Shown: one piece after another, positions 3,916 through 20,893 of the stretch
Layout of the letters: each line of letters starts with the position of its first letter
Position numbering within the stretch: the stretch's first letter is position 1
Assembly (NCBI RefSeq): GCF_004768545.1
Contig: NZ_CP038636.1
Span: forward strand, 434,001-498,000
From: Cupriavidus oxalaticus
GTDB taxonomy: Bacteria > Pseudomonadota > Gammaproteobacteria > Burkholderiales > Burkholderiaceae
Length of the DNA stretch: 64,000 bases
Reading direction: 5' to 3'
Notes under the pieces: model-generated
What the model saw: the letters and a program-made list of their open reading frames with translations, nothing else
The model's database searches: none
What the model was told of the DNA's origin: nothing
Position numbers and translations under genes: made by a program

Positions 3916-3953
3916 GAAAAGGGACTCCGGTCGCTTTGACTTGAAGGGGGGAA

Positions 3954-5974: not shown

Positions 5975-6216
5975 TCGCTTCACGAACCGATTCCACTTGG
6001 GGAGAGCCGAAAGGCCTCGGGCAGAACTTTTCGGCTGATTGCCTATAATTTTCCCCCCGCTAACCAGCACCCGACTCTCGCTGGCTGGTGCCTCGCACAA
6101 CAACTGACTGTTTTCCTTCCATCTTCGCTGACCATAAAAATGATTACGTAGCCATTTATGTACTGCATTGATGTAGGTATGGCAATATATTTAATCAATA
6201 AGTCATGTTGTGCTGC

Positions 6217-6639
6217 TTATGCGAGAAGGTCCGCGGGATGACCCGAGGCACGCTCGTGAGAGATGGTGTTTCTGTGAACCTGCACGGTCCAGTGCGCCTC
6301 CTGGTCGCAGCCCGAGCGCGCCAATTTGAGCGCGTCGCGCCGGTCGGCCTTGACCCGCTCGCCAGGCTTTCGTGGAATCAGTGATGGCGCGCACACCATG
6401 CAGTCGAATCCCCTCTGGACCAGTTAGCGGTAGAGGCCATAGCCGCAAGGGCCTGCTTCATAGACGATGCGTACGTGCTGCGCCTTGGACTGCCTGCGCT
6501 GGCATAGGCGATCGACGTCCGTCTTCCAGGTACCGATCTTGCCGAGCAATTCCACCTCTCCCATGCCGATGGCATAAGCTGCAGTGATCGATCCCTTGTG
6601 TACGTCGAGACCGACGTACGCCGTGCTATCGTTTCCCAT
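6217..6639 (-). pseudogene. IS110-family transposase relic
   Basis: From an ATG at 6639 the reading frame gives a clear IS110/IS1111 N-terminus (YVGLDVHKGSI with the first catalytic Asp), then an in-frame TAA at 6424-6426 after GPCGYGLYR. The same frame continues past the stop with [20 protein letters not shown], the next conserved block containing the DRRDA motif, and then diverges. About two thirds of the protein, including the C-terminal Tnp20 domain, is missing. The element is therefore truncated and also carries a nonsense mutation. No terminal repeats were recognised. Confidence 0.8.
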
Positions 6640-6864
6640 GCTGGCCTCCGTGCTGGAAATCGCCGGGTGTGGACTAAGGCCACACCATGCGGCTCTGGCA
6701 GCCAGGCTAACCCGCGTTTGATTCCCCACGGCGGGCCAGCCACCGACTTGGAGGCATACTGCCTAAACCGCTTCGCGGTGGTTCGAATCTCTGCCCAGCA
6801 TCACGAATTAATAGTCGGTCTCCTACGCTCGGACGGCAAGCACGAAGCCAAATTGGAGGAACAA

Positions 6865-7373
6865 ATGGCAGCAAAGCCTCGCACCTCGCAGAAGCTCCTG
6901 GCAGAGATGCGCGAGCAATGGCGCCTCTTGTCCCTGTACGAACGCTTCGAACAAGTCGTCGTCGTAGCGCTGAGCCTGATCATCGCCGTAGTGATCGCGA
7001 TAGCTCTCGTCCAATTGACCCTTGGTGTGCTGCCACATGTGCTCAGCGGCACGGTGAGCCCGCTCGATCATGAAGTGTTCCAAAATCTCTTCGGGGCATG
7101 GTGACGACGCTGCTCATCGCACTGGAGTTCAAGCACTCCATCATTCGGGTTGCGCTGCGCCGGGAGAGCATCGTTCAGGTCAAGACAGTCATTCTCATTT
7201 CGCTGATTGCACTGAGTCGAAAGTTCGTCATTCTAGATACGAAGGCAACCGACGCTGCCACAATCGCTGCGCTTTCAGGGGCGACACTCGTTCTCGGAGT
7301 GGTGTATTGGCTACTACGCGAGCGCGATGATCGAGTCGCCGGCCTCGATCGAGGAGAGCTTGGCAGCGAATGA
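6865..7373 (+). pseudogene. psiE: PsiE-family inner-membrane protein, frameshifted
   Basis: A GGAGGA site precedes the ATG at 6865. The first frame (to 7104) has a basic N-terminus and a transmembrane helix rich in Val/Ile, then ends at FGAW. A second frame opening at 7098 continues the same family without a gap: LIALEFKHSIIRVALR, VQVKTVILISLIALSRKF and a last membrane segment before LLRERDD. The two pieces overlap by 7 bases and differ by two bases in phase at the GGGGCATGG string. Together they make a normal-length phosphate-starvation-inducible PsiE-like protein with about four membrane helices. It is either a true frameshift or a sequencing error; function in the family is unknown. Confidence 0.72.
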
Positions 7374-7443
7374 GCGGGCGTAGGCGAATGACTCAAATTC
7401 GGGCCAGACCGGACGCCGAAGCGGCATATCTCGGCAGGCAACG

Positions 7444-8376
7444 CTAAATGCCGAGGCTGCCTGCCAGGCGTTCGGCCATCTGCATTTGGCGAAATGCTTC
7501 CACAACGTATTCGATGAATACGCGCGTCTTGGTTGGTATCAGTGTGCGCGTAGGGTAGTACAACGAAATGGCGCCTGCATCGGCATACCAGCGTGGCAGT
7601 AAGCGCACCAGTTCGCCACGTTCAATCCATGGCAACACATCCGGTACAGCCAGCAGTGTCACACCGAGCCCCAGTAGCGCGGCTTCACGCATGGCGGCCG
7701 GGTCGCTCACCACAATGCGTTCGGGCATGGTCGCGGCAACCTCGTTGCCGGCGGCATCGCGCATGGTCCATTGGCGCGTGCGTCCTGTGCGTCCGGAGCG
7801 CATGACGATGCCATCCATGACGTTCAGCATGGATGGATCGGCAGGCAGCGTGCGTTCCCGCAGATACGCAGGCGACGCCACCGCGACGACATGCGCCGGT
7901 GCCAGTGCGCGCGACACGAGACCCGGCGTCAGCTCGAAGCCCCCGCCTATAGCCGCGTCGAACCCTTCGGCAATCAAATCGATCGCGCGATTCTCGAAAT
8001 GCCATTCCGGGCGGATCGCCGGATAACGCTTCAGGAAATCGGGAAGCAATGGCAGCACGTAAGCCATGCCGAACGATGGGGCCAGGCTGACTTTCAGCAC
8101 GCCAGCCGGTTCGCCGTGTTGGTTCGACATGGCGGCGATGGCGGCTTGGAGAGCGTCCAGGTTGCCGCCGATGGATGCAAGGAAGCGTTCGCCAGCCTCG
8201 GTAAGCGTCAGCTTGCGTGTCGAGCGCTGAAACAGTCGCACGCCCAGATTGCGCTCGAGCATGGCCACGTTGCGGCTGACGGCCGCGGGCGTCAGGGCCA
8301 GTCGGCGACCCGCCGCCGAAAAGCTACCGGTTTCGGCGCTGCGCACAAAGGATTCGAGGTTGGCGAGGGTTTCCAT
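7444..8376 (-). CDS. LysR-family transcriptional regulator
   Basis: 310 residues from ATG 8376 (METLANLESF). The frame could start 14 codons earlier, but the chosen start gives the normal LysR N-terminus. The winged helix-turn-helix is at residues 1-60 with GSFSAAGRRLALTPAAVSRNVAMLE, a strong LysR signature. The remainder is the periplasmic-binding-type effector domain. It is transcribed divergently from the SDR and F420-type reductase genes, the usual arrangement for a LysR protein and its targets. The inducer is unknown. Confidence 0.9.
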   Translation of the reverse strand: METLANLESFVRSAETGSFSAAGRRLALTPAAVSRNVAMLERNLGVRLFQRSTRKLTLTEAGERFLASIGGNLDALQAAIAAMSNQHGEPAGVLKVSLAPSFGMAYVLPLLPDFLKRYPAIRPEWHFENRAIDLIAEGFDAAIGGGFELTPGLVSRALAPAHVVAVASPAYLRERTLPADPSMLNVMDGIVMRSGRTGRTRQWTMRDAAGNEVAATMPERIVVSDPAAMREAALLGLGVTLLAVPDVLPWIERGELVRLLPRWYADAGAISLYYPTRTLIPTKTRVFIEYVVEAFRQMQMAERLAGSLGI

Positions 8377-8493
8377 CCGACTCAGCTTACACGATTGCTT
8401 GAAGATGATTTCAGGCATTTTCGACTAATCACCGGGGAATCGCGCGCCCATACTTCGTTCACACCTCGTGATTCACCCTAACCGGAGCTAAAA

Positions 8494-9246
8494 ATGACTC
8501 AACAGACGCTTTCCCTGTCCGGCAAGATCGCCCTAGTTACTGGCGGTTCGCGCTCCATCGGCGCCGCCATTGCCCGCCGCCTGGCCGCCGACGGCGCGGC
8601 CGTGGCGCTGACCTACAGTGCCTCACCGGATAAAGCCGCCACGGTAGTAAGCGAGATCGAAGCGGCCGGCGGCCGGGCCATCGCGCTCGCCGCAGACGCG
8701 GGCGATCCCGCGGCGGTGCGCCTAGCCGTGGCCGCGACGGTCGACGCATTCGGTGGTCTCGATATCCTCGTCAACAACGCTGGCATGGGCCTGGGCGGCG
8801 CTATCGAGGACATCCCGTTCGACGCCTACGAGCGCATGATTGCAGTGAACGTGACCGGCGTATTTGTGGCCACTCAGGAAGCGGTGCGGCATATGAAGGC
8901 GGGCGGGCGCGTGATCCATATCGGTTCGTCGATGGTGCGCTACGCAGCGTTTCCCACGGCATCGCTCTACACGCTGACCAAGGGTGCAATTGCCGGCTTC
9001 AATCGCAGTCTGGTGCGTGATCTGGGGCCGAAAGGCATCACGGTCAACACCGTTCACCCTGGCCCGACCGACACCGATATGAACCCCGCCGGCGGCCCGG
9101 TTAGCGAGATCGTAGGGCCCGGCATTGCCTTGGGCCGATACGGGCAGCCACATGAGATTGCCGGCGTGGTGGCATTCCTCGCCGGCCCGGACGCAGCCTT
9201 CGTGACGGGTGCCGAGATCGTTGCCGATGGCGGCTTCACCGCTTGA
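8494..9246 (+). CDS. SDR-family NAD(P)-dependent oxidoreductase
   Basis: 250 residues, classical short-chain dehydrogenase. The cofactor motif TGGSRSIG is at about 16-23, NNAG at 93-96, the catalytic Ser near 144, and Tyr158-x3-Lys162 (YTLTK). The C-terminus GAEIVADGGFTA is typical of 3-oxoacyl-ACP reductase-like members. GGAG lies 8 bases before the ATG. It is divergent from the LysR gene and its stop overlaps the frame of the next reductase by a few bases, so the two are probably co-transcribed. The substrate is not identifiable. Confidence 0.9.
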   Translation: MTQQTLSLSGKIALVTGGSRSIGAAIARRLAADGAAVALTYSASPDKAATVVSEIEAAGGRAIALAADAGDPAAVRLAVAATVDAFGGLDILVNNAGMGLGGAIEDIPFDAYERMIAVNVTGVFVATQEAVRHMKAGGRVIHIGSSMVRYAAFPTASLYTLTKGAIAGFNRSLVRDLGPKGITVNTVHPGPTDTDMNPAGGPVSEIVGPGIALGRYGQPHEIAGVVAFLAGPDAAFVTGAEIVADGGFTA

Positions 9247-9260
9247 ACAAGGAGTTCGTC

Positions 9261-9848
9261 ATGCAAGCAAGCTACGGAAAGACCATTGGCATCATCGGCG
9301 CGGGCGCGATAGGCATGGCGTTCGCCACGGCGCTGGCTCGGCACGGCATCCAGGCGGTGGTGGCCAACAGTCGTGGGCCTGAAACGCTTCGGGATGCCGT
9401 GAAAGCAATCGGGCCTTCGATTCGCCCGGGCACGCGCGAGGCAGCCACAGCGCAGGACATCGTGCTGGTGGCTGCGAACTGGTCGAAGCTGCCACTGGCA
9501 CTGAGCGGGCTGCCCGAATTTGGCGGGCGGACTGTCGTCGACGCAAACAATCCAATTGAGGCCCCGCTGTTTCGCCCCGCGGACCTGCATGGCCGCTCTT
9601 CGAGCGCAGTGTTTGCAGACCTCGTGCCCGGCGCGCGTGTTGTCAAGGCGTTCAATCACCTGCAACCCGCACTGGTGTCTGGCGATCCGCAAGCAGAAGG
9701 TGGCCGCCGCGTGTTGTTTTTATCCGGTGACGATGCGAACGCCAAAGCCGAGGTGGCCACGCTTTCTGGCCGGCTACGCCATTTTGATTCCGCCAGCTTG
9801 ACCCGTAGCGGCTCGCCGCAGCGCGCAGAACAGAACGGGCAATCGTGA
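9261..9848 (+). CDS. NADPH-dependent F420-reductase-like oxidoreductase
   Basis: 195 residues from ATG 9261, preceded by AAGGAG at 9249-9254; an upstream ATG at 9243 lacks a good site. GAGAIG (13-18) is the Rossmann dinucleotide motif, and NNPIE and VVKAFNHL are conserved in this NADP oxidoreductase family. The C-terminus (from RHFDSASLTRSG) looks unlike the family. One base out of frame, codons after 9845 read VTLAKLLPPLR to a TGA at 9880, so the native end may have been lost to a frameshift. It follows the SDR gene by 14 bp. Confidence 0.75.
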   Translation: MQASYGKTIGIIGAGAIGMAFATALARHGIQAVVANSRGPETLRDAVKAIGPSIRPGTREAATAQDIVLVAANWSKLPLALSGLPEFGGRTVVDANNPIEAPLFRPADLHGRSSSAVFADLVPGARVVKAFNHLQPALVSGDPQAEGGRRVLFLSGDDANAKAEVATLSGRLRHFDSASLTRSGSPQRAEQNGQS

Positions 9849-10030
9849 CGCTCGCAAAGCTGCTGCCCCCGCTTCGTTGACACAACAGCCTTCTTTTCCT
9901 AAATTTTTTTGCAGGGCGACGAGTCGCCCGGTGTGCGTTGATTGGTCCGATACTGGCTCACCCAGCTCGGACGTTCTGCACCTGTGCTTTAGTGACCATT
10001 CGTGATGCCTTTGCAATCTGGGAGCGCACC

Positions 10031-10444
10031 ATGTCAAAGGTTGCATATAGCCCTGTTGACGCGCGACGCTTGCGGCAAGACCGGGCAATCGAAGAATCTC
10101 GCAAGCGCGTCCGCATACAGATCACCCATATCCGGCATATTCAGGCAGAGGGTGACAGCCCGGACACCGCATATCGTGTTCTGAGGTATCTACGTCACTC
10201 AGTAAGGCAACTCAGGGAAAATCGCGACCTGTTTGTACGCGCTTTTGGGGCTGACGGGCACGATCGTATTCCGGTTGCACAGGAATCGTCAGTACTGCCC
10301 AACGGCGCCGCTGAGCGGTTCGTGCAAGCCGAAGATGATGGCGAGCCAGCGCCAGATGCGGCCGCCACAAGTGGCGGGCCGAGGGAGGGTGCTGTATGCA
10401 ACCCCCAAAATAATTGCTCCATCGTACTCTTGAAATCTGACTAG
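10031..10444 (+). CDS. Hypothetical protein, first gene of small heat-shock cluster
   Basis: 137 residues from ATG 10031 with GGGAG six bases upstream. I do not recognise a family. The first 80 residues are strongly charged and probably helical (many Arg, Gln and Asp), with no membrane segment or signal peptide. The last 50 residues are low in complexity (Ala, Pro, Glu, Asp) and end unusually with a Cys-containing tail. It lies just upstream of two Hsp20 genes in the same direction, so a stress-related role is possible but not shown. Confidence 0.55.
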   Translation: MSKVAYSPVDARRLRQDRAIEESRKRVRIQITHIRHIQAEGDSPDTAYRVLRYLRHSVRQLRENRDLFVRAFGADGHDRIPVAQESSVLPNGAAERFVQAEDDGEPAPDAAATSGGPREGAVCNPQNNCSIVLLKSD

Positions 10445-10572
10445 CTGCTTTTATTTCCGGCTCAAGCAGTCGCGACGTCGCGCTGCGTTTCTGTTTGTTT
10501 GCTGCCACCAAGGCAGGCGAACGGGAGCGCGCAAGCCCCTTCGCCTCCTTGCTGTTTGAAGGAGATAAGATC

Positions 10573-11013
10573 ATGAGTCACGCAGTTTTTGGAGCCGATC
10601 TCTTCAGTGAACTCGACCGCCTGCAAAGGCAGATGGCGGACGTGTTTGGCGGCTTCCCCTCCAGTATCCGCTCCGGGCGCTCCGGCGCCTTCCCGCCGGT
10701 GAATATCGGGTCGACGGACGACACCATCGAGATCGTTGCGTTCGCGCCCGGGCTGAAACGGGAAAACCTGGAGGTCTCTATCGACAAGGGGCTACTGACG
10801 ATCAGTGGAGAGCGCGGTCCTTCCTATGCGGACGACTCGCCAGATAGCAAGCGCTATGCGCGTGAGCGCTTCGTCGGCTCGTTCAGGCGCGTCATCGAGC
10901 TGCCGCAAAGCGCCGATCCTGACAAGGTTCAGGCTCGCTACGCGAATGGTTGCCTGTCGATCAGCGTGGGCAAGCGGGAAGCCTCCAAGGCACGCGCGAT
11001 TGCCGTCCAGTGA
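10573..11013 (+). CDS. Hsp20/alpha-crystallin small heat-shock protein
   Basis: 146 residues; GAAGGAG lies about 10 bases before the ATG at 10573. An N-terminal arm (DLFSELDRLQRQMADVFGG) precedes the alpha-crystallin domain at about 40-140, with the conserved FAPGLKRENLEVSIDKGLLTI region and a C-terminal strand. Such proteins form oligomers that hold unfolding proteins in a refoldable state in the cytoplasm. It is followed after 14 bp by a second Hsp20 gene, a common tandem pair in this group of bacteria. Confidence 0.92.
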   Translation: MSHAVFGADLFSELDRLQRQMADVFGGFPSSIRSGRSGAFPPVNIGSTDDTIEIVAFAPGLKRENLEVSIDKGLLTISGERGPSYADDSPDSKRYARERFVGSFRRVIELPQSADPDKVQARYANGCLSISVGKREASKARAIAVQ

Positions 11014-11027
11014 ACCGGGAGATTGCC

Positions 11028-11435
11028 ATGTCAGAGATGAATCAAGTCGTTGCACAGCCTCAAGGTGCTGTCGCACCAGCCCAGGATGAAAAGGCGATGC
11101 CTACCGTGACGTTGCTCCCGCCGGTCGATATCGTCGAGGATGCGGGGGGCGTTACGTTGTGGGCGGACCTGCCTGGTGTGACCCGCGACCAGCTGGAAGT
11201 CAGCGTCCATGACGGGAACCTTCGCATCGAGGCGCAGGCTATCGTATCGATGCCCTCGGGCCTGCGGGTACAACACGCTGAAATCCGGCAGCCGCGTTTC
11301 GCGAGGACGTTCTCGCTGAGTCCCGACCTCGATTCGACGAAGATCGAGGCGAACCTGCAGGACGGCGTACTGAGGTTGACGATTCCACGTCGTGAAGCCG
11401 CGCGTCCGCGACGCATCGACGTCAGTGTTTCCTGA
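11028..11435 (+). CDS. Second Hsp20/alpha-crystallin small heat-shock protein
   Basis: 135 residues from ATG 11028 with GGGAG upstream. An Ala/Gln-rich N-terminal arm leads into the alpha-crystallin domain: TLWADLPGVTRDQLEVSVHDGNL, then RFARTFSLSPDLD and DGVLRLTIPRRE near the C-terminus. It is divergent from, not a copy of, the preceding Hsp20, so the two may form hetero-oligomers. It ends just before an 11-bp perfect stem-loop at 11464-11497. Confidence 0.92.
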   Translation: MSEMNQVVAQPQGAVAPAQDEKAMPTVTLLPPVDIVEDAGGVTLWADLPGVTRDQLEVSVHDGNLRIEAQAIVSMPSGLRVQHAEIRQPRFARTFSLSPDLDSTKIEANLQDGVLRLTIPRREAARPRRIDVSVS

Positions 11436-11463
11436 GTCCGGGCTGGGATAAGCCAGGATGAAC

Positions 11464-11497
11464 GCGCCATGCCGCGCCGCAGGCGCCGGCATGGCGC
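11464..11497. terminator. Strong stem-loop after the hsp20 pair
   Basis: GCGCCATGCCG and CGGCATGGCGC form a perfect 11-bp stem with a GC-rich loop, 28 bases after the second hsp20 stop. There is no T run, so it may act as an RNA 3' end stabiliser or partial terminator rather than a classical intrinsic terminator. Confidence 0.5.
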
Positions 11498-11539
11498 ATT
11501 CTCCGGTTTGCAGATAGGCATTGCAAAAGGATATAAGAC

Positions 11540-11923
11540 ATGGAGTTTGATTCCGACTGGATGACATTGGGCAAACACCGCGTTCGCATCCGGTGCGTGC
11601 GCGGCTTCCCTACGGAGAAGACGCGAAGTGTGGCGGAGTTGGCCAGGATTGCCATCGAAAACAATCTCAGTGCAGCGGCGCGCCTGGTCGAGGTAACCGC
11701 GGACAGTGAAAAGACGTACACAATAAGCGTCGGCACAACCTTTCCGAAAGATAGGGATGTCGCGCCTCACCTCGACGTGGCGTTGGCGACCATGTTCGGG
11801 CTCAAATCCGATCAGGTGAATTTCGACGTCGTGGTAGTCAGTCAGGCCGAGGTCGATCTGCACTTCGGCGTCTACGAACGAATGCTGGCCGAGAAGCTTG
11901 GAATCGTGCCGAGTATTCAGTAA
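11540..11923 (+). CDS. Hypothetical protein
   Basis: 127 residues; AAAGGATAT precedes the ATG at 11540. No family recognised. It is a soluble mixed alpha/beta protein without signal peptide or membrane segments, with clean GC-rich codon use. It follows the hsp20 pair in the same direction after a strong stem-loop, so it may be expressed from the same region at lower level. Confidence 0.6.
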   Translation: MEFDSDWMTLGKHRVRIRCVRGFPTEKTRSVAELARIAIENNLSAAARLVEVTADSEKTYTISVGTTFPKDRDVAPHLDVALATMFGLKSDQVNFDVVVVSQAEVDLHFGVYERMLAEKLGIVPSIQ

Positions 11924-12040
11924 GCGAGAAAAGCGGGATGCCTTCATCATCGAGCCCCGTCGTCGCCCGATTAGTTCATGCTCGGCGCGGCTGTATGTGA
12001 CAAACGGGTGCCGCGTGAACTCAGCAGCTTCGAATTGCAG

Positions 12041-12335
12041 ACGGACCACGGGGCGCGCGTTCTGCAGCGCTTCGAAGGCACTGCCGAACTGCTGCGCCAT
12101 CGCGCGCGCATGGGCACGGTCGCCGTCGGCGAAGCCGTTCAGGTCGGCGCCGGCGCTGAAAAACTTCTCACCGGCTCCGGTCACGACGACGGCGCGGATC
12201 TCGGGGTTGGCATCGATCTTCGCCACCAGATCGCGCAGCTGCTACAGGCCGTCGGCGGTGAAGGCGTTGGCGGGCGGGCGGCTCAGCGTCAGCGTGGCGA
12301 CGTGGCCATCCAGCGCCAGCACTATCGGAGCACAA
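12041..12335 (-). pseudogene. Enoyl-CoA hydratase/isomerase N-terminal relic
   Basis: On the minus strand the segment reads VLALDGHVATLTLSRPPANAF, then an in-frame TAG at 12242-12244, then QLRDLVAKIDANPEIR and AVVVTGAGEKFFSAGADL, the acyl-CoA-binding loop of the crotonase fold. Homology stops abruptly after ALQNARPVV, just before the catalytic glycine-rich helix. The gene is thus both interrupted and cut off. The long open frame that runs on to 11060 on this strand is antisense to the Hsp20 genes and not a continuation. Confidence 0.75.
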
Positions 12336-12416
12336 TAGTGCGGTCAGGCAGCATACAGGCACAGAAACCGTCGGTGTCTGGTTTGTTGCGGCCGTGGTCA
12401 TCGGCGCTTCAAGCGC

Positions 12417-12605
12417 CTACTTTCCGCTGCCCCTGCCGCCGATGCCAACCTTACCGCGCCCGATCTTGCGATGCGGTACACCGGGGCGCAGCCGCTTTCT
12501 GGTGCTAGCAGCCAACGTGACGTGCTCCGCAGGGTAGCGGGTTGTCCTATGCAGCGCGGCCTGGTAGGCAGGATGGTCCGGACTAATGTACTTGATCGCT
12601 GACAT
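12417..12605 (-). CDS. Small basic hypothetical protein
   Basis: 62 residues from ATG 12605, which follows a near-perfect Shine-Dalgarno AGGAGGTG. The N-terminal half (MSAIKYISPDHPAYQAALH) is neutral; the C-terminal half is rich in Arg, Lys and Gly and may bind nucleic acid. No family recognised. The strong ribosome site is the main reason to believe it. Confidence 0.5.
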   Translation of the reverse strand: MSAIKYISPDHPAYQAALHRTTRYPAEHVTLAASTRKRLRPGVPHRKIGRGKVGIGGRGSGK

Positions 12606-13012
12606 GATTGGCACCTCCTCTGAGGATTCTAGTTCGAAAAGGCAGGGCGACATGCCGCTTTTCTGACCACGCCATGCGCGTGTTCTGTGAAGGCACAACG
12701 CCCCATCCAACAGGGCATTGCCGAGCCATAAGAGCCAACCGAGATAATGTTAGCGATTGACGGTCCGCTTACCAGCAATTCGCCTGACGTCGGCGAACCG
12801 CTGAATTCCGCCCCCGGCGCTACTGTGCCCCAAGCCACCTCACATAAAGCCTGGATTTCGGGGAAGATAGCGCGTCCAATCGCCGCAGTCGCGCCAGCTT
12901 CCGCAGGATGACAAGTGCGAAGCTCCGACAATCTCTCACCGACCCGTCATAGCCATCGCGAGTACCGGGAGGTGAACGGCCGCGTCCAAAGTACAACTGC
13001 TATCTCGATACC
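12606..13012. other. Intergenic, no supported gene
   Basis: A minus-strand open frame across 12629-12931 has no ribosome site and no recognisable family content. Nothing else is seen. Confidence 0.4.
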
Positions 13013-14143
13013 CTAGTCCCCGTTGGCCTCGCCGTCAGGCCGTGTCACCACCTCGCGGAGCGGGATGACGGCGCGGCCGCCGCAGTTGCGCAGCAGGTCT
13101 CGCAATTCGTTGATTACCGGAAATACCTCGTGATTCCAGTCGCCCCCCTGCTTGTCGTGGGCCTCTTGCTCGCGCTCGACGATCCAGCGGTCCTCCCTGA
13201 AGATGCGTTCTGTGAACCAGACCAGCAGCGGCCATGCCAGGTCCAGTGCAAACGGAATGCCGGGCTTGCGGATGGAAAGCAGGCCAAACGTCCGGTTGGT
13301 GCGCTGCGCCGCGTCCAGCGGCACGTAGACGATCCACAGGTCCATCACCAACGTGCCGTCGCCCGAGCGGATCTGGAGGGTCTGGTACGGATATATGGTG
13401 CGCACCGTCATCACGTCCTTGTTGTCCCGGTCGCAGTTCTTCTTGCTGGCGCCAAACACCAGCGCCTCGCCCACAGGCTGCTTGCCTTCCATGCGCGCGA
13501 ACGTGTAGTCCACTTCCACCCAGTCCTCTCCGCGACGGCGGCCCAGCGAGCGCGCGCGCATCTGTCCCATCTGCCGCCGGTGTAGGAACTGGTGGTTCAT
13601 GTCCATCAGGTTCTCATGCATGAAGGAGTAGTGGCACTTGACCTCGCGGCCAAAGCGACGCGTCTTGTACGCCTTGTCCGCCACCGATGGCAGAGCGGGC
13701 AGCGGCCGCTCCTTGGCAAGCGCCCCATCGCCAGGAAAGACAAAGATCAGGCCGTGCACCTCGCGGCAGGGATAGGCACGCACGCCGTTGGGCAGGCGCT
13801 CACGCCCGAGGTATGGCACATCGATGCAGCGGCCGGTGCAGTCATAAGTCCAGCCGTGATAGCCACAGCGGATGGACTCGCCTTCCACCACGCCCGCGTG
13901 CAGCGGCACCTGCCGGTGTGCGCAACGATCCTCCAGTGCGAATATCGTACCGGACACGGTACGAATCAGTACGATCGGATCGCCGGCAAAATGCACCCCG
14001 TGGGCTTTGCCCCGCTTGACCTCATTTGACCAAGCCAATGGGAACCAGTGATCGGGATGGATGGGCACACGGCGCAGGTCGCGCACGGGCGCATTAGCGT
14101 GCGGGTCGATGGCATGGCTATCCGGCAAAGGCACTGTATGCAT
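13013..14143 (-). CDS. Rieske [2Fe-2S] aromatic-ring hydroxylating oxygenase, large subunit type
   Basis: 376 residues from ATG 14143, which has GAGGAGG eight bases upstream. The Rieske cluster ligands are C74-x-H76 (DRCAHRQ) and C93-x2-H96 (CGYHGW). The mononuclear iron site follows at N178-x2-D181-x2-H184-x3-H188, the form found in vanillate demethylase and phenylpropionate dioxygenase-like enzymes. It would hydroxylate or demethylate an aromatic or cyclic compound using electrons from a separate reductase, which is not encoded nearby. No operon partner or regulator is adjacent, so the substrate stays unknown. Confidence 0.88.
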   Translation of the reverse strand: MHTVPLPDSHAIDPHANAPVRDLRRVPIHPDHWFPLAWSNEVKRGKAHGVHFAGDPIVLIRTVSGTIFALEDRCAHRQVPLHAGVVEGESIRCGYHGWTYDCTGRCIDVPYLGRERLPNGVRAYPCREVHGLIFVFPGDGALAKERPLPALPSVADKAYKTRRFGREVKCHYSFMHENLMDMNHQFLHRRQMGQMRARSLGRRRGEDWVEVDYTFARMEGKQPVGEALVFGASKKNCDRDNKDVMTVRTIYPYQTLQIRSGDGTLVMDLWIVYVPLDAAQRTNRTFGLLSIRKPGIPFALDLAWPLLVWFTERIFREDRWIVEREQEAHDKQGGDWNHEVFPVINELRDLLRNCGGRAVIPLREVVTRPDGEANGD

Positions 14144-14592
14144 GCGTGACGCCTCCTCGTATAACGGGAGCTTCGACCGTCGCCACACGCCGACCAATTA
14201 GCGAACGGGGATTCGGCGCAGTTTACGCGAAGTCTACCGAACTCACCGGAATCCCGTTCTTTCCATATTGTGGTTGATATTGTGGAAGGCTAAAGGTCAT
14301 GGCCACCTTCGGCCAATCGACCCCCACACATCCTGGTGGCGGGGTAGCGAGCGTCCGGTGCCTGGTACGGAGCCGACGCACAACTGCCGACGCTATAGCG
14401 CCGGGCAATGGCCGAAAGTGGCCGCTTGCTGCCGCTGAGTCCCCCGATAACATTGCCTTACTGGCAGCCCTGACTTAAGTGCGTCTTATTCCACTTTTTG
14501 CGTTGAAATTTGATAACTATTATCGAGAACGGTACATTTCGCGTGACATCCGCCGTGCCCTTGCGCCCAACCCCGTCTGAAGAGGATCAAAT

Positions 14593-14914
14593 ATGAACAC
14601 CGGCAAGCCGCAGCAATGGTCACGTGGCTAGCACAATGCCGGCCGGCTTTGCCGCATTACTTGTCGGCTAGCTGACTGCTTCGATTCTTGGCAAATTCAA
14701 GCCTGCTTCGCCAGAGCTCAAGGCTGCCTGCGAAGGGGCAGGGCCCAACTATATGCAAAAGCCTGCGGTGGTGGTCGGATCCATCGCATTCGACTGGACA
14801 GTGGATTCCCATCCTCCAGTCATCCCATATTTCGAAGTCGATGGACGCGGCAATGTCATTCTGCCGTCGCGCCGATCACTCATGCCATGTCGACCGTCAT
14901 CAGATTGGTCTTAG
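14593..14914 (+). pseudogene. Possible decayed gene of unknown family
   Basis: An ATG at 14593 is followed by stops in its frame. From about 14672 another frame stays open to a TAG at 14914 and reads like real protein (ELKAACEGAGPNYMQKP, then SIAFDWTVDSHPP). No family assigned. The rest of 14144-15168 shows only short shadow frames and nothing I can support. Confidence 0.3.
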
Positions 14915-15168
14915 AGCTTGGCAGAGCCACATTCGAGACGTTGTACGTCACCGGCACGTCAGCGGTTAAGTTTGGAATTCCGTAGTAATCACCCTGCTTC
15001 GGATGACGAATGAAAGGCCGAACGCGATTGCGCGGTGGACCATTCACCCAGCTTGTTCAGCGTAGGCATAACAGTCTTCGCTCGAACCGTTGGGTGAGAA
15101 GGCGACTACGGCGGCAGAACGTCAGGGCCCTGTCGGGCGGGAGCACCGGCCCCGCCCTGGATCGCGCA

Positions 15169-15384
15169 CTAGTCGAAGCTGACCGCGTTCACGGCGCAGG
15201 ACGACAGGTTGGACTCATAGCTGCCGGGGCGCACACCCCATTGCCCTCCCCGCTGGGCCTGGAGCCAGAGCTCGATGGTGGTGATGAGCGTGGCGTCGTG
15301 GACGTGCTTGTCCTGCCGCCAGCAGACCTTGACCTCTGTTCCGTTGTTGGCTTCGGTGAATTTTTCCTGGCAATACTTGGCCAT
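15169..15384 (-). CDS. Small protein of unknown function, last gene of the paralogue operon
   Basis: 71 residues from ATG 15384, with AAGGAG upstream; the frame is open further upstream but without a ribosome site. It has three Cys (CQEKF near the start, VCWRQ in the middle, SSCAV near the end) and a Gly/Arg-rich turn (QRGGQWGVRPG). No signal peptide or membrane segment. It is the distal gene of a four-gene minus-strand operon and lies 41 bp after the 87-residue gene. Function unknown; with its neighbours it may be a partner or immunity-type protein, which is speculation. Confidence 0.65.
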   Translation of the reverse strand: MAKYCQEKFTEANNGTEVKVCWRQDKHVHDATLITTIELWLQAQRGGQWGVRPGSYESNLSSCAVNAVSFD

Positions 15385-15425
15385 GGCTGGCTCCTTGAAG
15401 GATGCAACGTGTGGAACGGTGAACT

Positions 15426-15689
15426 TCACATCACGGTGAAATAGTCGCGCCAAGCGGCCTCCAGCGTGATCCGGGTAGGCATCGGCACGGCGGCGTTGTT
15501 GAACGTGGGCGGTTGGTTATTGCCGTAGTAGTAAGCGGTGCGGTCGTTCGTCGCCATATGGTCGCGCGTGGCATTGTCAACGCAACGGCTCATATGGATA
15601 GCCGGGAAGTTCGGATTCTCGTAGTACACCCAGACGCCTTGGCCGTTCGCGGGGTCGCGATACGCGCTGACTTTCCAGTCGTCCATCAT
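15426..15689 (-). CDS. Small protein of unknown function in the paralogue operon
   Basis: 87 residues (the start may be ATG 15689 or 15686); AAGGAG precedes. The sequence is rich in Tyr, Asn, Pro and Trp (WVYYENPNFPAIHM, YYYGNNQPP), typical of an exported or surface-binding beta-rich protein, yet it has no signal peptide. One Cys. No family recognised. It sits 61 bp after the 405-residue paralogue and 41 bp before the 71-residue gene. Confidence 0.65.
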   Translation of the reverse strand: MMDDWKVSAYRDPANGQGVWVYYENPNFPAIHMSRCVDNATRDHMATNDRTAYYYGNNQPPTFNNAAVPMPTRITLEAAWRDYFTVM

Positions 15690-15750
15690 GGTTGCTCTCC
15701 TTGAAAACGCTACTGCGATTGACGTGCCGGTGGGCGTATTCCCGCCAGCG

Positions 15751-16968
15751 CTACGAAACCGGCTTGCTGATCACGCCCAGCAAGACCGGGACATCCGAGC
15801 CGCTGCCATCGAACGAGACTTCGGTACCGTTGCAGCCCCGGCATGCCACGGCGCCCGGGGCATCCTGGGCGGCGCCCTGAACGGCAAAGGGGCCGACCCG
15901 CGTCAGCGAAGCAGCGAGTGCCTGCGCCTGGTGCGGACTGCCCGCGCGCAGCGCGATGCGCGGCTGATAGCCGATGACCGCTCCTGTTGGCAGCAACGCG
16001 AGCGCGCCGGCGGCCCCGAAGAAGTCGGGCGCCCCCGCCGGCAGCGCGGCCTGGCCGCCATCCAGCAGGCCGGCGTCGAACCAACTGCCAGGAGTCAGCG
16101 CGAAGACGCCGAACCCACCCAGCGACAAAGCCAATCCGTTGACGCCGTCAGGCAGGCCATTCGGCGCACCTTCGACCATGGCCGCTAGCGGCGCCGCGTT
16201 GATTGCATCCGCGACCGCCGCGCCGCCGGCGCCTTGCAGCCCCAGGAAGGAAGGCCAGCTTCCCGCCGCCGGCAAGGCAGCAGCAGGCGCGGCCCCGGCC
16301 GGAGCGGCCAGCGCCGGAGGCGGCAGGAACACCGACCAGGCCGTAGCGCCGCCGGCCGGCGCCGCGCGCCATGCGGCCAGCCCCGCAGGCCAGCCATCGA
16401 GCGCGTATTGCGGGCAGCGGAATACCACGCCCGCCGCATAGAGGCTGGCGGCCATGTTCAGGTCCGAGGCCTCTTGTTGCGATGCCAGCAAGCAGCGATT
16501 CAGGGCTGCCGTGAGCGCCGGCACGCGTTCACCCAACGCCGCCAGCAGCGCTTGATGCGCTTGCGCAGGCGCCATGGCGTTGGCCGCGGCGTTGACGCCC
16601 GCGGGCATGGGCGGCCCGGGCCGCCACGCCCGCACCGCCTGGCGGTAGCGCGCGAGGTCGGCCTGCAGGCTGCCCGTCCCGGCAGCCGCCCGCAACAGCG
16701 CGGGCTGCCCTGCGGCGCTTTCCACCAGGTAGCTCAGGCAAAGCCAGTAGGCGGCAAACAAGCCGCTGTGTGGCGCGTAGACACCCGCGGCAGCGGGAAT
16801 GCCGTCGCCCAGCTGGTAGGTGCACCAGTTGCCCACCTGCGCATCCGCGTTGCCCAGTCCGCTGAAGGTGGCGGCCCCCGCGACGGAGAACACGTCGTTG
16901 CCAGCCACGCCCGCATGGCCGGCAAGTGCCGCGGCATACATGCGCCAGAGCGCAAGGTCGGATAGCAC
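15751..16968 (-). CDS. Large protein of unknown function, paralogue B
   Basis: 405 residues from a GTG at 16968 with GGGAGGT upstream. It is a clear paralogue of the 453-residue protein encoded just before it: GNAD plus a following L-G-D/x-P block at residues 39-55, GFGVFALTPGSWFDAG in the middle, APDFFGAAG with IGYQP after it, and a final VPVLLGVISK (about 393-402). Compared with its sister it is far richer in Ala, Gly and Pro, especially around 210-260, and has a CRGC pair near residue 370. No signal peptide or membrane helix. The N-terminal half looks helical, the C-terminal half beta-rich. Function unknown. Confidence 0.75.
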   Translation of the reverse strand: MLSDLALWRMYAAALAGHAGVAGNDVFSVAGAATFSGLGNADAQVGNWCTYQLGDGIPAAAGVYAPHSGLFAAYWLCLSYLVESAAGQPALLRAAAGTGSLQADLARYRQAVRAWRPGPPMPAGVNAAANAMAPAQAHQALLAALGERVPALTAALNRCLLASQQEASDLNMAASLYAAGVVFRCPQYALDGWPAGLAAWRAAPAGGATAWSVFLPPPALAAPAGAAPAAALPAAGSWPSFLGLQGAGGAAVADAINAAPLAAMVEGAPNGLPDGVNGLALSLGGFGVFALTPGSWFDAGLLDGGQAALPAGAPDFFGAAGALALLPTGAVIGYQPRIALRAGSPHQAQALAASLTRVGPFAVQGAAQDAPGAVACRGCNGTEVSFDGSGSDVPVLLGVISKPVS

Positions 16969-17058
16969 GGCGAGACCTCCCGGCAGGATGGACAGGATGA
17001 ACGGCTGGGCGGCGCAGCCCCTCGCCCGAGCGCGCGAGGGACTGCGATCGCGACGGCC

Positions 17059-18420
17059 TCAGGTGCCCAGCTGCTGGCTTACTACCCCAAGCAGGATCGG
17101 CAGGGTGCTGCTGACCGGCCCGATCGTGACCGTGGCAGATGCATCGTCCCACTTGATGTCCTGCTTGGTGCCGTTGGTCGACACCGTGGCCGAGCCGATG
17201 CGGAAAGGGCCGATGCCGATCGACGCGGTCGCCTGCGCCTGCCAGGTGTTCTTGACGTTGCTGTAGTCGCTGGCCGCCATCTTCAACTTCACGGTCGGCT
17301 GGAAGCCCACCACGATCTGCGTCGCCATCCGCGCCAGCGAGCCGCTGTCGGCGAAGAAGGCCGGCGCGCCGGATTTGAGCCGCTGATGGTAGGTCGACAC
17401 CAGCCCGCCGTTGTCCCACCACAGCCCCGGGCCGACCGGGAAGGTGCCGAAGCCGGTGAAGTCCACGGTCAGGCTGAAGTCACTGCTGGTGGTATTGATG
17501 CTGGTCTTTTGCCCGCTGGCCGAACCGCTGCCGAAGAAGGAGAAGAAGTCGCCGAACAGGCTGGCGTCTACCGAGGTGCTCCAGCCGAACTCGTCGAAGT
17601 CGTAAGTCTTCGAAGCGGAAGTCACCGAGATCGACGCGCCGGCGTTGTTCTTGCCGGCGACGCTGGCCTGCTGCCACTCGGCGTACTTGGCGCTAAACGC
17701 CTGCAGGGAATAGGACGGCGCGAAGGCCGAGATCAGGTTGTTCACCGGCACCGGATTGGTGCCACCGATCACCACCGGCTGGCTGCCTGCGGGTGCGACG
17801 CTGCCCACCTTGACCGGCATGTTGTACGGGTTCTGCAGCGTCATGCTCTGCGCGCCGTTGATGCCCACCTTGGCCCGCGCCTGCTGCACCACGCTATAGC
17901 CGGCCCCATAGGCCTTGATCATGATCTCGTCATACGCGCTGGCGGCGCCGATCAGCGCATTGTTGGCGCTCAGGTAGGACGGATAGCTCTGCTGCACCCA
18001 AGTCTGGAAGGGAGGCGGCGAGGGATTGACGTTCTTGTACGCCCCGTAAGCCGTATAGGCCGCTACCTGGACATTGTTGAATGCGGTCTGCGCGGCATTG
18101 AGCGCCGCCGCGGCCTGGTTGACCTGGCTGTCCAGGTTCGGATTAACCATGGCGCCAAGGTCGATCCAGTCGAGGAAGGTCGCGTACGTGGCCAGAAGGC
18201 CGCCCACCGGCGCATAGGCCGGGCTGTTGGCAGGCACGACATCGCCGATGCCGTACACATAGGCATTGATGATGTCCGGGTCGGCGTTGCCCAGGTCCAC
18301 GTTCAGGGTGGTTGAGCCGGCGCTGAACTGCTGCTGTGCGGACATGCCATTGGGGAAGGCGGTCGCCTGCAGGGCGCCCATCCACTGCTTCCACAGACCC
18401 ACGGTATCGACGTTTGCCAT
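17059..18420 (-). CDS. Large protein of unknown function, paralogue A
   Basis: 453 residues from ATG 18420; TGGAG precedes it, and the open frame upstream is only read-through across the response-regulator gene. Residues 1-200 look helical, with GNADPDIINAYVYGIGD (44-60) and a YGAGYSVVQQARAK helix. Residues 250-453 look beta-rich: many Ser/Thr, GFGTFPVGPGLWWDNGGL, APAFFADSGS, VGFQPTVKLKM, and the closing LPILLGVVSQ (about 440-449). No signal peptide, catalytic motif or known domain recognised. It heads an operon with paralogue B and two small proteins, and lies downstream of a two-component pair in the same direction. A two-part structural, binding or pore-forming role is possible but unproven. 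Confidence 0.78.
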   Translation of the reverse strand: MANVDTVGLWKQWMGALQATAFPNGMSAQQQFSAGSTTLNVDLGNADPDIINAYVYGIGDVVPANSPAYAPVGGLLATYATFLDWIDLGAMVNPNLDSQVNQAAAALNAAQTAFNNVQVAAYTAYGAYKNVNPSPPPFQTWVQQSYPSYLSANNALIGAASAYDEIMIKAYGAGYSVVQQARAKVGINGAQSMTLQNPYNMPVKVGSVAPAGSQPVVIGGTNPVPVNNLISAFAPSYSLQAFSAKYAEWQQASVAGKNNAGASISVTSASKTYDFDEFGWSTSVDASLFGDFFSFFGSGSASGQKTSINTTSSDFSLTVDFTGFGTFPVGPGLWWDNGGLVSTYHQRLKSGAPAFFADSGSLARMATQIVVGFQPTVKLKMAASDYSNVKNTWQAQATASIGIGPFRIGSATVSTNGTKQDIKWDDASATVTIGPVSSTLPILLGVVSQQLGT

Positions 18421-18647
18421 TTTTTTTGCTCCAGATCGTTTGCCGAGAAGGGACGGTGGCGGCATCCAGGCCCCACCCTCCGCCGACGCGCCGTGCCCCG
18501 CCGCCATCGCGCATGCACCGTTCGTCTGGCATTCATGGTCGGTTATCGCGGGCGCCGCCGAACTGTGCCGCGGCCTGATTCGCACCTTCAGGAATGCTGA
18601 TTCGCGCATCAGCAGCACGGATATCGCGGCCGCCGGCGGCGTAGCGC
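18421..18647. promoter_or_regulatory. Likely promoter region of the paralogue operon
   Basis: 227 bp separate the response-regulator stop from the first paralogue gene. No clear -10/-35 pair stands out. It is the only sizeable gap before the four-gene operon, so it is the likely place for response-regulator binding. Confidence 0.35.
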
Positions 18648-19292
18648 CTAGAAGAGGTCTTCGCGAATCGCGTAGCGCGTCAGCTGGGCAATGCCCTTGA
18701 CCTGGAGCTTGGCCATGATGTGCTCGCGATGGGTACCCACCGTTTTGCCGCTGATGTGCAGCCGTTCGGCAATCTCCCGGGTGGAGTGCCCCTCCACCAG
18801 CAACTGCAGGATCTGCCGCTCGCGCGTGCTGAGCTGCGCGCTCGGCTCGATCGAGCCGTGGTGCCGCGCGCAGCGCAGGCTGGCGACCATCGCGGTGGCC
18901 ACCTCGGGACTGAGATAGGAACGTCCTCCCGCCACCGTGCGGATGGCCTTGCCGAGTTCGTCGCAGGCGCAATCCTTGAGCAGGTAGCCAAGCGCGCCGG
19001 CGTCCAGCGCGGCGGCGATCCTGCGCTGCTCGCCATGCGCCGAGAGGCACAGGACGCGCGCCGAGGGCACGTCCGGCACGATGCGGCAGAGCGCGTCGAT
19101 GCCGTTGAGTACCGGCATGCCGAGATCGAGGGCGATCACGTCCGGGAGCAAGGCCTGCGCCATGCGCAAGGCTTCCATGCCGTCGCCGGCCTGGCCGACA
19201 ACGGTCATGTCCGCTTCGCGCTCAAGCAAGGCGGCAAGTCCCTCCCGGAAGAGCGTGTGATCGTCGGCAAGCAAAACACGAGTTTGCGGCAT
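18648..19292 (-). CDS. NarL/FixJ-type response regulator
   Basis: 214 residues. The ATG at 19292 lies 2 bases after the kinase stop; the frame also allows a TTG two codons earlier. The receiver domain has the acidic pair at D10-D11, the phospho-acceptor Asp56 (ALDLGMP) and the conserved Lys in LLKDCA. A C-terminal LuxR helix-turn-helix follows (LSTREREILQL-type segment, then STREIAERLHISGKTVGTHR). It pairs with the kinase encoded immediately upstream and most likely controls the downstream paralogue operon on the same strand. Confidence 0.92.
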   Translation of the reverse strand: MPQTRVLLADDHTLFREGLAALLEREADMTVVGQAGDGMEALRMAQALLPDVIALDLGMPVLNGIDALCRIVPDVPSARVLCLSAHGEQRRIAAALDAGALGYLLKDCACDELGKAIRTVAGGRSYLSPEVATAMVASLRCARHHGSIEPSAQLSTRERQILQLLVEGHSTREIAERLHISGKTVGTHREHIMAKLQVKGIAQLTRYAIREDLF

Positions 19293-19294
19293 GC

Positions 19295-20146
19295 TCAACC
19301 TCGCGGCATGGTGTGGATTACGTCGCGGTGCGCCGAGCCGCCGGTATCGACGCCCGCCGCCCGCCAGTGCCCCGTGGGCATCACGATGCGCACGTGCGTG
19401 CCGCTGCCGTGCGCGGAGCCCACTTCGAGGCGTGCCCCCAGCGCGCGAAGCTGTGCCGCGCTGCTGGGAAGGCCAAAACCGCCCCCAGCACTGCCCTGGC
19501 CGGCAACAGAGCCCGGATCGAAGCCACGGCCGTCGTCCTCCACGCTGACCGTGACGTGGCCGCGCTTACAGGCCGTACGCACCCACACCTGGGATGCGCC
19601 GCTATGCTTGCGAACGTTGGCAAGCAGCTCCTTCACCACGCGCAGCAACACCGCGGTGGCAGCTTGCTCAAGCGGCGCCTGGGGGCCGCGCAGATCCAGC
19701 AGCAGGCGGGGAACCCCGCTCGATCCTTCCCCTGCGCAATGCGCCAGGCTACGCAGCGCGTCGTCGAGCGGCCCCTGCGCCAGCAGGCCAAGGCCGAGAT
19801 CGATCGTCGCCGCGCGTACGCTGGCGGCAGCCTCCGCCACCAGCGTACGCGCCTCGCCGATCAGCGCGCGTGCCTGCGGCGGGCATGCCAGCTTCTCCAA
19901 CTGGCCCAGCCGCAATAGCGCGAGGGCAAGCGCCTGGCCCACTTCGTCGTGCAGGCTGCAGGCGATGCGCTGCCGCTCACACTCCCGGGCCGCATGGCTG
20001 GCGTCGAGGATGGCCTGCTGTTGCTCGCGCCGCCGCCCGCGCACTGGACGATTGGCCTGGTACGCGGGCGCGCCCCCTGGGACAAGCCCGTCGCTGTCCC
20101 CGGGCGCCGCCCCGGCATTCTTGTTCTGCAACATGCCTGTCCCCAT
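19295..20146 (-). CDS. Soluble NarX/DegS-type sensor histidine kinase
   Basis: 283 residues from ATG 20146. The HisKA_3 box ERQRIACSLHDEVGQ carries the phospho-acceptor His66. The HATPase domain has the N box (KELLANVRKHSG), the G1 box (VEDDGRGFD) and a GGGFGL G2 region. There is no transmembrane helix and only about 50 residues before the dimerisation domain, so no recognisable sensor domain: the signal must be cytoplasmic or come from a partner. The response regulator follows after 2 bp. An AT-rich stretch upstream (20170-20215) is the likely promoter. Confidence 0.88.
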   Translation of the reverse strand: MGTGMLQNKNAGAAPGDSDGLVPGGAPAYQANRPVRGRRREQQQAILDASHAARECERQRIACSLHDEVGQALALALLRLGQLEKLACPPQARALIGEARTLVAEAAASVRAATIDLGLGLLAQGPLDDALRSLAHCAGEGSSGVPRLLLDLRGPQAPLEQAATAVLLRVVKELLANVRKHSGASQVWVRTACKRGHVTVSVEDDGRGFDPGSVAGQGSAGGGFGLPSSAAQLRALGARLEVGSAHGSGTHVRIVMPTGHWRAAGVDTGGSAHRDVIHTMPRG

Positions 20147-20333
20147 TGAAACCAACAAACTCTCCAGCGCGCGAAAATCTCTTTTAAATATTATTCAATT
20201 GACATACAGTTCCATGAATCCCGCGCCAGCTCTGGCTTTCCGGACTTCGCGGTCAAGCCTTGCGCAGCATCATCCCGCCGCGCGCACGCGGCTTGCAATA
20301 CTGCCAATGCCGTATCTCCGGTAGCACAGGGAT

Positions 20334-20636
20334 TCACTCATGGCGCCAGAGGCCATGGCGCAGGCAATAGATCGCCACGCCGGCCGCATTGCCCACGCCG
20401 AGTTTCCGGTACAGGTTCTCCCGATGCTTGCGCACGGTCAGGTTGCTCAGGCCGAGTTCCCTGGCAATCCGCTTGCTGGTATGCCCCGCTGCTACCCGTT
20501 GCGCAATGTCACGCTCACGCTGCGTCAGCACAGCCGGTGGCACGCCCGCCGGATGCGCCGCCATTGCCGCCTCGATGGGCCGCGCGAGATCGACGAAAGC
20601 CGTGCGCCACCGCGTAGGCGGCAAGCTGCGCCGCAT
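20334..20636 (-). CDS. LuxR-type helix-turn-helix ORF, downstream half of an overlapping pair
   Basis: 100 residues from ATG 20636. The C-terminal LuxR HTH is clear (LTQRERDIAQRVAAGHTSKR, then ARELGLSNLTVRKHRENLYRKLG). It overlaps the upstream LuxR-type ORF by 122 bases in another frame. Its own first 20 residues are read in the frame opposite to the conserved end of that upstream HTH, so the true coding part probably begins near DLARPIEAAM. Either the two are overlapping genes or one tandem-HTH protein is split by a 1-base frameshift near 20590. Confidence 0.65.
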   Translation of the reverse strand: MRRSLPPTRWRTAFVDLARPIEAAMAAHPAGVPPAVLTQRERDIAQRVAAGHTSKRIARELGLSNLTVRKHRENLYRKLGVGNAAGVAIYCLRHGLWRHE

Positions 20637-20805
20637 TGCGCAAGCCCGTCTTGGCCAGCAAGTTGCTGCGATGCTTGCGGGCGGTCAGCACGCTGATCTG
20701 CAATGCAGCGGCAACGGCGCGGCAACTCATGCCGGATGCGATCAGCCCCAGGACTTCAAGTTCGCGCTGCGTCAGCGTGGCGTAGAGAATGCTTTGAGCC
20801 TGCAT
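20515..20805 (-). CDS. LuxR-type helix-turn-helix ORF, upstream half of an overlapping pair
   Basis: 96 residues if started at ATG 20805 (MQAQSILYATLTQREL). A complete LuxR HTH is visible (ELEVLGLIASGMSCRAVAAA, then LQISVLTARKHRSNLLAKTG, and QLAAYAVAHGF), followed by an Arg/Gly-rich tail that looks like out-of-frame translation. It lacks a receiver or ligand domain. Its position upstream of the kinase/regulator pair, on the same strand, suggests it belongs to the same regulatory module. Confidence 0.65.
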   Translation of the reverse strand: MQAQSILYATLTQRELEVLGLIASGMSCRAVAAALQISVLTARKHRSNLLAKTGLRNAAQLAAYAVAHGFRRSRAAHRGGNGGASGGRATGCADAA

Positions 20806-20893
20806 GTGTTGCCTGGGACGGGATGAAGCCCGCAATTCTGGCAGATAGCAGCCCCCCGGGTGGGCGGCAGACAAGCCCGCCGCCGAACAACGC

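Follow-up and report, generated by a model that had tools for sequence, protein, structure and literature searches.

We analysed a 64,000-nucleotide stretch of Cupriavidus oxalaticus DNA (contig NZ_CP038636.1, positions 434,001 to 498,000; hereafter the window), in which eight genes, all on the minus strand, form a compact block. In order, these are two LuxR-type helix-turn-helix (HTH) proteins, a histidine kinase (HK), a NarL/FixJ-type response regulator (RR) and four genes that we call A, B, C and D. The two LuxR/GerE regulators are HTH-only proteins: regulator 1 (20515–20805) has 96 amino acids (aa) from an ATG at 20805 and regulator 2 (20334–20636) has 100 aa, with GerE matches at E 1.4e-12 and 1.6e-17, respectively. 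A longer frame for regulator 1 opens at 21090, with conservation at the protein level (tblastn) only from residues 77–90 of that frame. Because regulator 2 overlaps regulator 1, a later start is possible for regulator 2, for example at an ATG near 20564. The HK (19295–20158) matches HisKA_3 (2.7e-9) and HATPase_c (4.3e-14), and no N-terminal sensor domain was found, with no Pfam domain before residue 61 in searches up to E 1. The RR (18648–19298; Response_reg 3.6e-24, GerE 1e-20) has a start that abuts the HK stop. These matches bear out an initial annotation of the stretch, made from the letters alone, which had described LuxR-type HTHs, a kinase without a sensor domain and a NarL-type regulator.

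Protein A (17059–18420, 453 aa) is followed by protein B (15751–16968, 405 aa, GTG start), protein C (15426–15689, 87 aa) and protein D (15169–15384, 71 aa, its WRQDKHVH core strongly conserved). The gaps between them are 90 bp (A–B), 61 bp (B–C) and 41 bp (C–D), and purine-rich ribosome sites precede all four (GGAG for A, GGGAGG for B, AAGGAG for C and D), so that coordinates and sequence agree with the compact module first described, including its protein lengths and its gaps of 41–90 bp. None of A–D reaches a Pfam or NCBIfam family, the sole Pfam row being DUF1207 for A at E 0.13, below the cut-off, and the anti-phage defence models of PADLOC gave no family for A–D up to E 1. The initial statement that the four products match no known family therefore stands, and no firm match to a housekeeping family appeared. 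Rfam gave no match. Two further candidates were set aside: no intrinsic terminator is claimed for the 3' edge of the block (hairpin z-score 0.09, no scan match there), and a C-like remnant downstream of D (about 14880–15000), convincing by eye, scored no better than 184 of 500 shuffles.

The gene set was followed by tblastn through 16 loci, seven from Cupriavidus (the window; L004, on the C. necator C39 megaplasmid; L005, on the C. necator N-1 plasmid pBB1; L006, L007, L008 and L067) and nine from Pseudomonas. All eight genes co-occur in 7/7 Cupriavidus loci and all except C in five of the nine Pseudomonas loci; two of the remaining four are without the HK (L014 and L066) and two without the LuxR pair and D (L011 and L012). 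A, B and the RR were found at all 16 loci, the RR standing beside A and B throughout. The HK was found at 14 loci (counted from tblastn tables, a clean HK frame not being extractable from seven of the 16), the LuxR pair at 14, D at 14 and C at seven, which comprise 7/7 Cupriavidus and 0/9 Pseudomonas loci. Recurrence of the eight-gene set in Cupriavidus and of the seven-gene set in five Pseudomonas loci argues that the arrangement is more than chance. Within Cupriavidus, B changes fastest, with a mean amino-acid distance of 0.317 against 0.086 for A and 0.129 for the RR.

Nucleotide comparison (blastn) places sharp edges on this block. In the six comparisons of the window with the other Cupriavidus loci, the common block ends at 15120–15143 and 20774–20863. 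Window positions 15123–20862 (minus strand), which we take as the whole cassette, align over their full length with L004, L006, L007 and L067 at 85–98% identity; with L005 and L008 the alignment breaks into two or three pieces (68–74%). Flanks were compared for 5.5 to 8 kb per side, as far as each locus reached, in 21 locus pairs at E 1e-5. The longest flank match, 274 bp, lies directly upstream in L004/L006; the others are 62 and 35 bp at the L007/L067 edges and a stray 33-bp match between L004 and L005. The GC content is 0.672 in the block and 0.608 and 0.606 in its 10-kb flanks. An aligned block with unrelated flanks at seven Cupriavidus loci means that regulators and effectors sit together in unrelated places, and we are confident that in Cupriavidus the block is one mobile cassette, a claim in which cassette and regulatory unit are taken together. 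No transposase was recognised inside the block; transposase-like remnants were seen, by eye only, upstream of L004 and L007. No terminal inverted repeats were seen by eye at the cassette edges. Of the plasmid records listed, eight (seven from Cupriavidus) contain a 150-bp stretch that in L004 lies some 0.4 kb upstream of the cassette. When plasmids were searched with three of the loci, only flank fragments and no empty site were returned; the best fragment, from Cupriavidus sp. P-10 (L085), matches the right flank of L004 from 460 bp past the cassette edge and has no left-flank match. Some Pseudomonas copies have common flanks, for example L009/L013, and the flank survey itself refers to the Cupriavidus loci.

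Upstream of A, alignment of the regulator-to-A region of the seven Cupriavidus and nine Pseudomonas loci, followed by a pattern search, revealed a direct repeat that is a candidate operator. In the window it reads AATCAG-N16-AATCAG and lies at 18575–18602 (minus strand), 154 bp ahead of the A start codon. The pattern AATCAG-N16-A[AT]TCAG occurs upstream of A in 15 of the 16 loci, and at the sixteenth, L066, the half-sites are one base further apart. At the 11 loci measured the repeat stands once per locus, 124–154 bp before A. The window holds one match against 0.01 expected by chance, and the 7.97-Mb genome, in which the window belongs to contig C3, holds two, the second at C1:360893; a reversed control gave none. 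L011 and L012 retain the repeat although no LuxR relative lies within 4.5–4.8 kb upstream of the kinase match. At L015–L018, which are distant relatives described below, neither the repeat nor HK and RR relatives (E 1e-3) were found, L017 covering only 0.9 kb upstream of A. Because the repeat is kept without the LuxR genes and gone where HK and RR are not found, the RR is its likeliest reader, and judged from these patterns it is likely that the RR reads AATCAG-N16-A[AT]TCAG. The most divergent RR (48% identity) belongs to L066, the locus whose half-sites are off-spaced. We know of no regulon with an AATCAG-N16-AATCAG repeat.

The initial annotation had proposed a self-contained induced system, and the idea of a self-contained unit has gained from the sharp edges in seven unrelated Cupriavidus contexts, the constant place of the RR beside A and B and the near-unique repeat before A. 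It had also held that relatives found mainly without the two-component pair or the small proteins would speak against the link. In part this is what was seen: no HK or RR relative was found at L015–L018, and C is confined to seven of the 16 loci, while D, the HK and the LuxR pair are each present at 14.

A and B are paralogues, as had been claimed: BLASTP aligns them at 33% identity over 134 aa (E 8e-10), and profile–profile comparison at 100% probability over 372 columns (E 1.8e-43). Our main alignment of A relatives (A1) comprises 42 sequences, two of the 43 matches (P0046 and P0047) having been moved as B-like into a second alignment (A2), and a third (A3) holds 13 of the 42 rows. Seventeen columns are invariant among the 42 relatives and contain only A, N, G, W, S, L, F and P. 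Because these include no catalytic-type residues, A is not obviously an enzyme. Both proteins are rich in Ala, Gly, Ser and Thr (41% of A and 46% of B) and weakly charged. An AlphaFold model of A (mean pLDDT 77) comprises an N-terminal part, a long helical hairpin (94–185 in the model, taken as 88–177 in structure comparison) and an alpha/beta part at the C terminus, in which two strands (316–331 and 364–380) are 16–17 residues long. Its elements run strand, hairpin segment, long strand, helix, long strand, helix, hairpin segment, strand, and mean hydrophobicity alternates in a beta-strand-like manner at 258–276, 305–331, 369–390 and 392–405. A viral fold library searched with the model gave a best E of 0.26, and sequence searches of the PDB gave weak scattered rows only (best E 0.027). 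The VIA list for the model, in which it was mainly the helical hairpin 88–177 that was compared, consists of helical hairpins (AcrA/MexA, F-BAR and others), and we do not read these as relatives. One A relative, P0014, is named 'ferritin-like metal-binding protein YciE' at its source, an annotation that is apparently wrong.

Protein A belongs to a broad, rare and unnamed superfamily that spans Pseudomonadota, Bacteroidota and Gemmatimonadota. L015–L018 hold distant full-length relatives. Weak matches in the Maribacter family led to the relatives L057/L058, L072, L073 and L074, and one of these led to Hyphomicrobiales plasmids (L086–L089). The profile of A relatives (A1) matches that of the L074/L086–L089 set (A6) over 393 columns with 95.3% probability (E 2.2e-8). 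Pfam, NCBIfam, PADLOC and PHROGs returned nothing usable for the distant relatives scanned, and L060 and L057 had no plasmid match. Adjacent divergent paralogue pairs occur at seven of 13 kinds of locus, namely A/B, L018 (29% identity), L073 (33%), L088 (30%), L089 (20%), and L074 and L086 (26% each in the C-terminal part). We call the A-like member a-type and its partner b-type; the a-type gene comes first in six of the seven pairs. In an alignment of 18 chosen proteins used for this comparison, most a-types, A among them, have two Gly/Ser-rich segments, one preceding the first long strand and one following the second, and B is a divergent paralogue without the Gly/Ser-rich first hairpin segment. 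Both L089 proteins start with signal-peptide-like sequences (by eye), and because of these N-termini the pair is probably exported. At L016, over 9117–12887, a divergent GH25 lysozyme gene lies upstream of the Woodsholea A relative, followed by a Nal1/trypsin-like protein (Nal1_C 2.3e-5, below the cut-off) and a short protein with a similar beginning. The L074 cluster (3703–10610) encodes a CHAP/peptidoglycan-binding protein and the a/b pair, together with a 572-aa protein whose beginning is rich in glycine and an L,D-transpeptidase that carries hemopexin repeats.

Relatives of A are scarce. They occur in 6 of 60 Cupriavidus genomes, with B adjoining in all six, in 6 of 398 Pseudomonas genomes, and in 1 of 369 genomes across the class, that one being the window's own. 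Farther out, the family of the Maribacter locus gave matches in 6 of 397 genomes and the order of the Woodsholea locus in 2 of 200, with a single full-length match in each, and the phylum of the Gemmatimonadetes locus in 1 of 249. Among 72,556 plasmid records, two carry A, both from Cupriavidus, and the nearest named relatives of A are Cupriavidus proteins. In the D family (about 71 aa) 21 relatives were found, and the three Pseudomonas genomes with D, of 298 searched, all carry A. A relative of C, 43% identical, is encoded on Streptomyces plasmid NZ_CP108391.1, where no annotated neighbour is named as an A relative, few neighbour sequences having been read. The C-like protein on the Streptomyces plasmid (L083, 8640–9261) lies beside an unrelated 106-aa hypothetical protein. 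A phage origin was considered and set aside: A, C and D have no relatives in the phage and viral collections searched, the best PHROGs row being at E 0.054. No paper was found under the locus tags CNE_BB1p13530, CNE_BB1p13520, CNE_BB1p13540, P0Y58_06530 or IB241_23420, or under a D motif.

Taken as a whole, these observations are best explained, in our tentative judgement and with somewhat less than even confidence, if the eight genes are a mobile, self-regulated effector cassette in which A and B form a non-enzymatic, envelope-directed pair. The regulatory logic and the cassette in Cupriavidus are well supported, whereas the function of the effectors is something we infer. In favour of this reading stand, besides the cassette and the operator, the co-inheritance of A, B and the RR (correlated pairwise distances), the invariant columns of A, the recurrent adjacent pairs, the greater Gly/Ser content of a-type hairpin segments, the strand-like alternation in A, the signal-peptide-like starts of the L089 proteins and the peptidoglycan-active enzymes near some distant relatives. 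A signal would reach the sensor-less kinase, and the phosphorylated RR would bind the AATCAG-N16-AATCAG repeat and switch on A-B-C-D, with the two small HTH proteins tuning this activation. A and B would be paralogous, non-enzymatic subunits of one assembly, located at the cell envelope or outside it. A would bring two Gly/Ser-rich hairpin segments beside long alternating strands, while B, having lost hairpin segments, would serve as a partner, cap or control subunit, and C and D would be small accessory proteins. That A and B act at the envelope or outside the cell seems to us an even call. The element order in one A model, the hairpin segments and the A/B asymmetry suggest a pore-former-like mode, the likeliest way of working within this scheme but one that we still regard as unlikely. 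Doubtful to a greater degree is the broadest version, in which the family would be a new superfamily of two-subunit membrane-acting proteins in at least three phyla (Pseudomonadota, Bacteroidota and Gemmatimonadota). Here the a-subunit would give two membrane hairpins and its hairpin-less paralogue would cap, deliver or restrain it, the Cupriavidus/Pseudomonas pair having been packed with kinase, regulator and operator into a replicon-hopping cassette. A and B may be a previously unseen two-part effector.

Several points weigh against the effector reading or limit the evidence for it. The 16 loci are not 16 independent cases because there are near-duplicates among them (L011/L012, L009/L065 and L010/L064, mostly 91–98% in aligned DNA), and the correlation of pairwise distances of A, B and the RR (0.89–0.92 over 120 locus pairs) is helped by the two-genus split and has no housekeeping-gene baseline. 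A scan found no sigma-70-like promoter. In 7/7 pairs the combined Gly and Ser content (G+S) of both hairpin segments is greater in the a-type member than in the b-type, a comparison biased because the a-type label was given partly by likeness to A. Furthermore, the seven pairs are partly related to each other and not all independent, the unpaired a-type L057 has a G+S of only 0.20 in segment 1, and a single member stands at L015, L016, L017, L057/L058, L072 and L087 (at L072, part of the DNA next to the gene, 666 bases, reads N). Nearly invariant A positions include the charged D42, K129, K390 and D426, and residues 31–44 and 85–102 of A also pass the alternation threshold. Peptidoglycan-active enzymes lie near relatives at three of 13 distant loci (GH25 at L016 and L072; CHAP/PG_binding_1 and YkuD_2/hemopexin at L074), a count without a background rate because the distant neighbourhoods were not scanned systematically. 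Of the profile and structure searches that the initial annotation had proposed, those with A gave no significant match (Foldseek against the PDB, best E 0.12), and the model of B was unusable (pLDDT 34.7) and was discarded. Pfam includes MACPF/CDC models; scans of the 42 A relatives up to E 1 listed seven families, with no MACPF or gasdermin among them. No signal peptide is visible by eye in A–D, which leaves export in Cupriavidus unexplained.

Three other explanations were weighed. The most probable of them, unlikely though less so than pore formation, is that A and B build an extracellular or surface structure (matrix, fibre or coat) under biofilm-type regulators and form no pore. This fits the data nearly as well as the pore-former-like reading: the weakly charged composition of both proteins, the long helical hairpin of the A model and the LuxR/NarL-type regulators of the block all suit it, as do LuxI-/LuxR-type quorum genes near the L005 copy and PAS-GGDEF genes near L009 and L014. 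The quorum genes, however, occur at one locus only and GGDEF at two only, A and B have no visible signal peptide, and fixed one-to-one divergent paralogue pairs look more like subunits of a defined complex. Less probable than any of the readings so far is a secreted or lysis-released toxin against microbes or invertebrates, not necessarily killing by pores, for which C and D would provide immunity or accessory functions. Rarity and patchiness (the six Cupriavidus and six Pseudomonas genomes and two plasmid records), the unrelated genomic places of the block, the restriction of D to A-bearing genomes and the lytic enzymes beside some distant relatives speak for a toxin, but C is missing from 9/9 Pseudomonas loci and D from two, which is odd for an immunity gene, and no toxin family appeared in Pfam and nothing in PADLOC.

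That the two-component system controls a stress or storage complex in the cytoplasm we consider improbable. Absence of visible signal peptides from the Cupriavidus proteins would agree with it, and a sensor-less kinase suggests an internal signal; set against these are the signal-peptide-like N-termini of the L089 pair (by eye), the lack of invariant catalytic-type residues in A, and a mobile and rare distribution that is unlike housekeeping stress genes. Among the surface, toxin and stress roles that the initial annotation had offered as examples, we tend to favour an envelope/surface or toxin-like role over stress.

Genes around the cassette were also recorded. In the window, two adjacent Hsp20 small heat-shock genes lie at 10495–11435 (HSP20 1.2e-18 and 9.2e-17), a comparable pair being annotated on two further Cupriavidus plasmids. 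Downstream of the cassette, 13013–14197 encode a Rieske-type oxygenase (Rieske 4.6e-23, VanA_C 8.4e-14); DNA similar to this region is found on Burkholderia and Mycetohabitans replicons that are not among the A-bearing records. Positions 35111–35487 and 36397–36721, outside the cassette, resemble DNA just upstream of the L008 cassette (L008 6876–7262). Genes for a LuxI-type autoinducer synthase and a LuxR-type autoinducer receptor (L005 12871–13602 and 15306–16061) follow downstream of the C. necator N-1 cassette, at distances of about 1.6 and 4 kb. PAS-GGDEF diguanylate cyclase genes stand upstream of two Pseudomonas copies (L009 5470–6513 and L014 7512–8525), directly preceding the first LuxR gene at L014, where the HK was not found.

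Structural studies have a well-defined object in this unnamed superfamily, which recurs as neighbouring divergent pairs in more than a single phylum. The cassette eases testing, as a single block of 5.7 kb brings together a candidate operator and a regulator. Membrane action or the building of a surface structure would make the pair a new class of bacterial effector; even with neither, a group of proteins so far listed only as hypothetical would be explained.

Compared with known systems, the element order of the A model presumably resembles that of bacterial gasdermins (PDB 7n52 and 7n50) and of the MACPF/CDC fold core, although no significant fold or sequence match links A to either. Bacterial gasdermins appear among the weak Foldseek rows for A (7n52 at E 0.6, 7n50 at E 0.86), and the long helical hairpin and N-terminal part of A are, we assume, absent from gasdermin and MACPF folds. 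Bacterial gasdermins have an activating protease encoded alongside; Pfam recognised no protease domain in the eight genes, though A–D have no recognised domain at all, and L016 was the only locus where a trypsin-like neighbour appeared. Adjacent, same-strand divergent paralogues that recur across phyla recall what we take to be the arrangement of binary toxins and pore formers, but no sequence relation to any described binary toxin was found. The best NCBIfam rows for the RR were MctR, PRK15369, NarL and UvrY/GacA, the 25 rows shown all falling below their cut-offs. While the regulatory half of the cassette differs from NarL/FixJ two-component systems with HisKA_3 kinases in that no sensor domain was found, two extra HTH-only LuxR proteins are present and the target operon is of no known family, it shares with them its domains, the kinase–regulator gene order and the GerE output domain.

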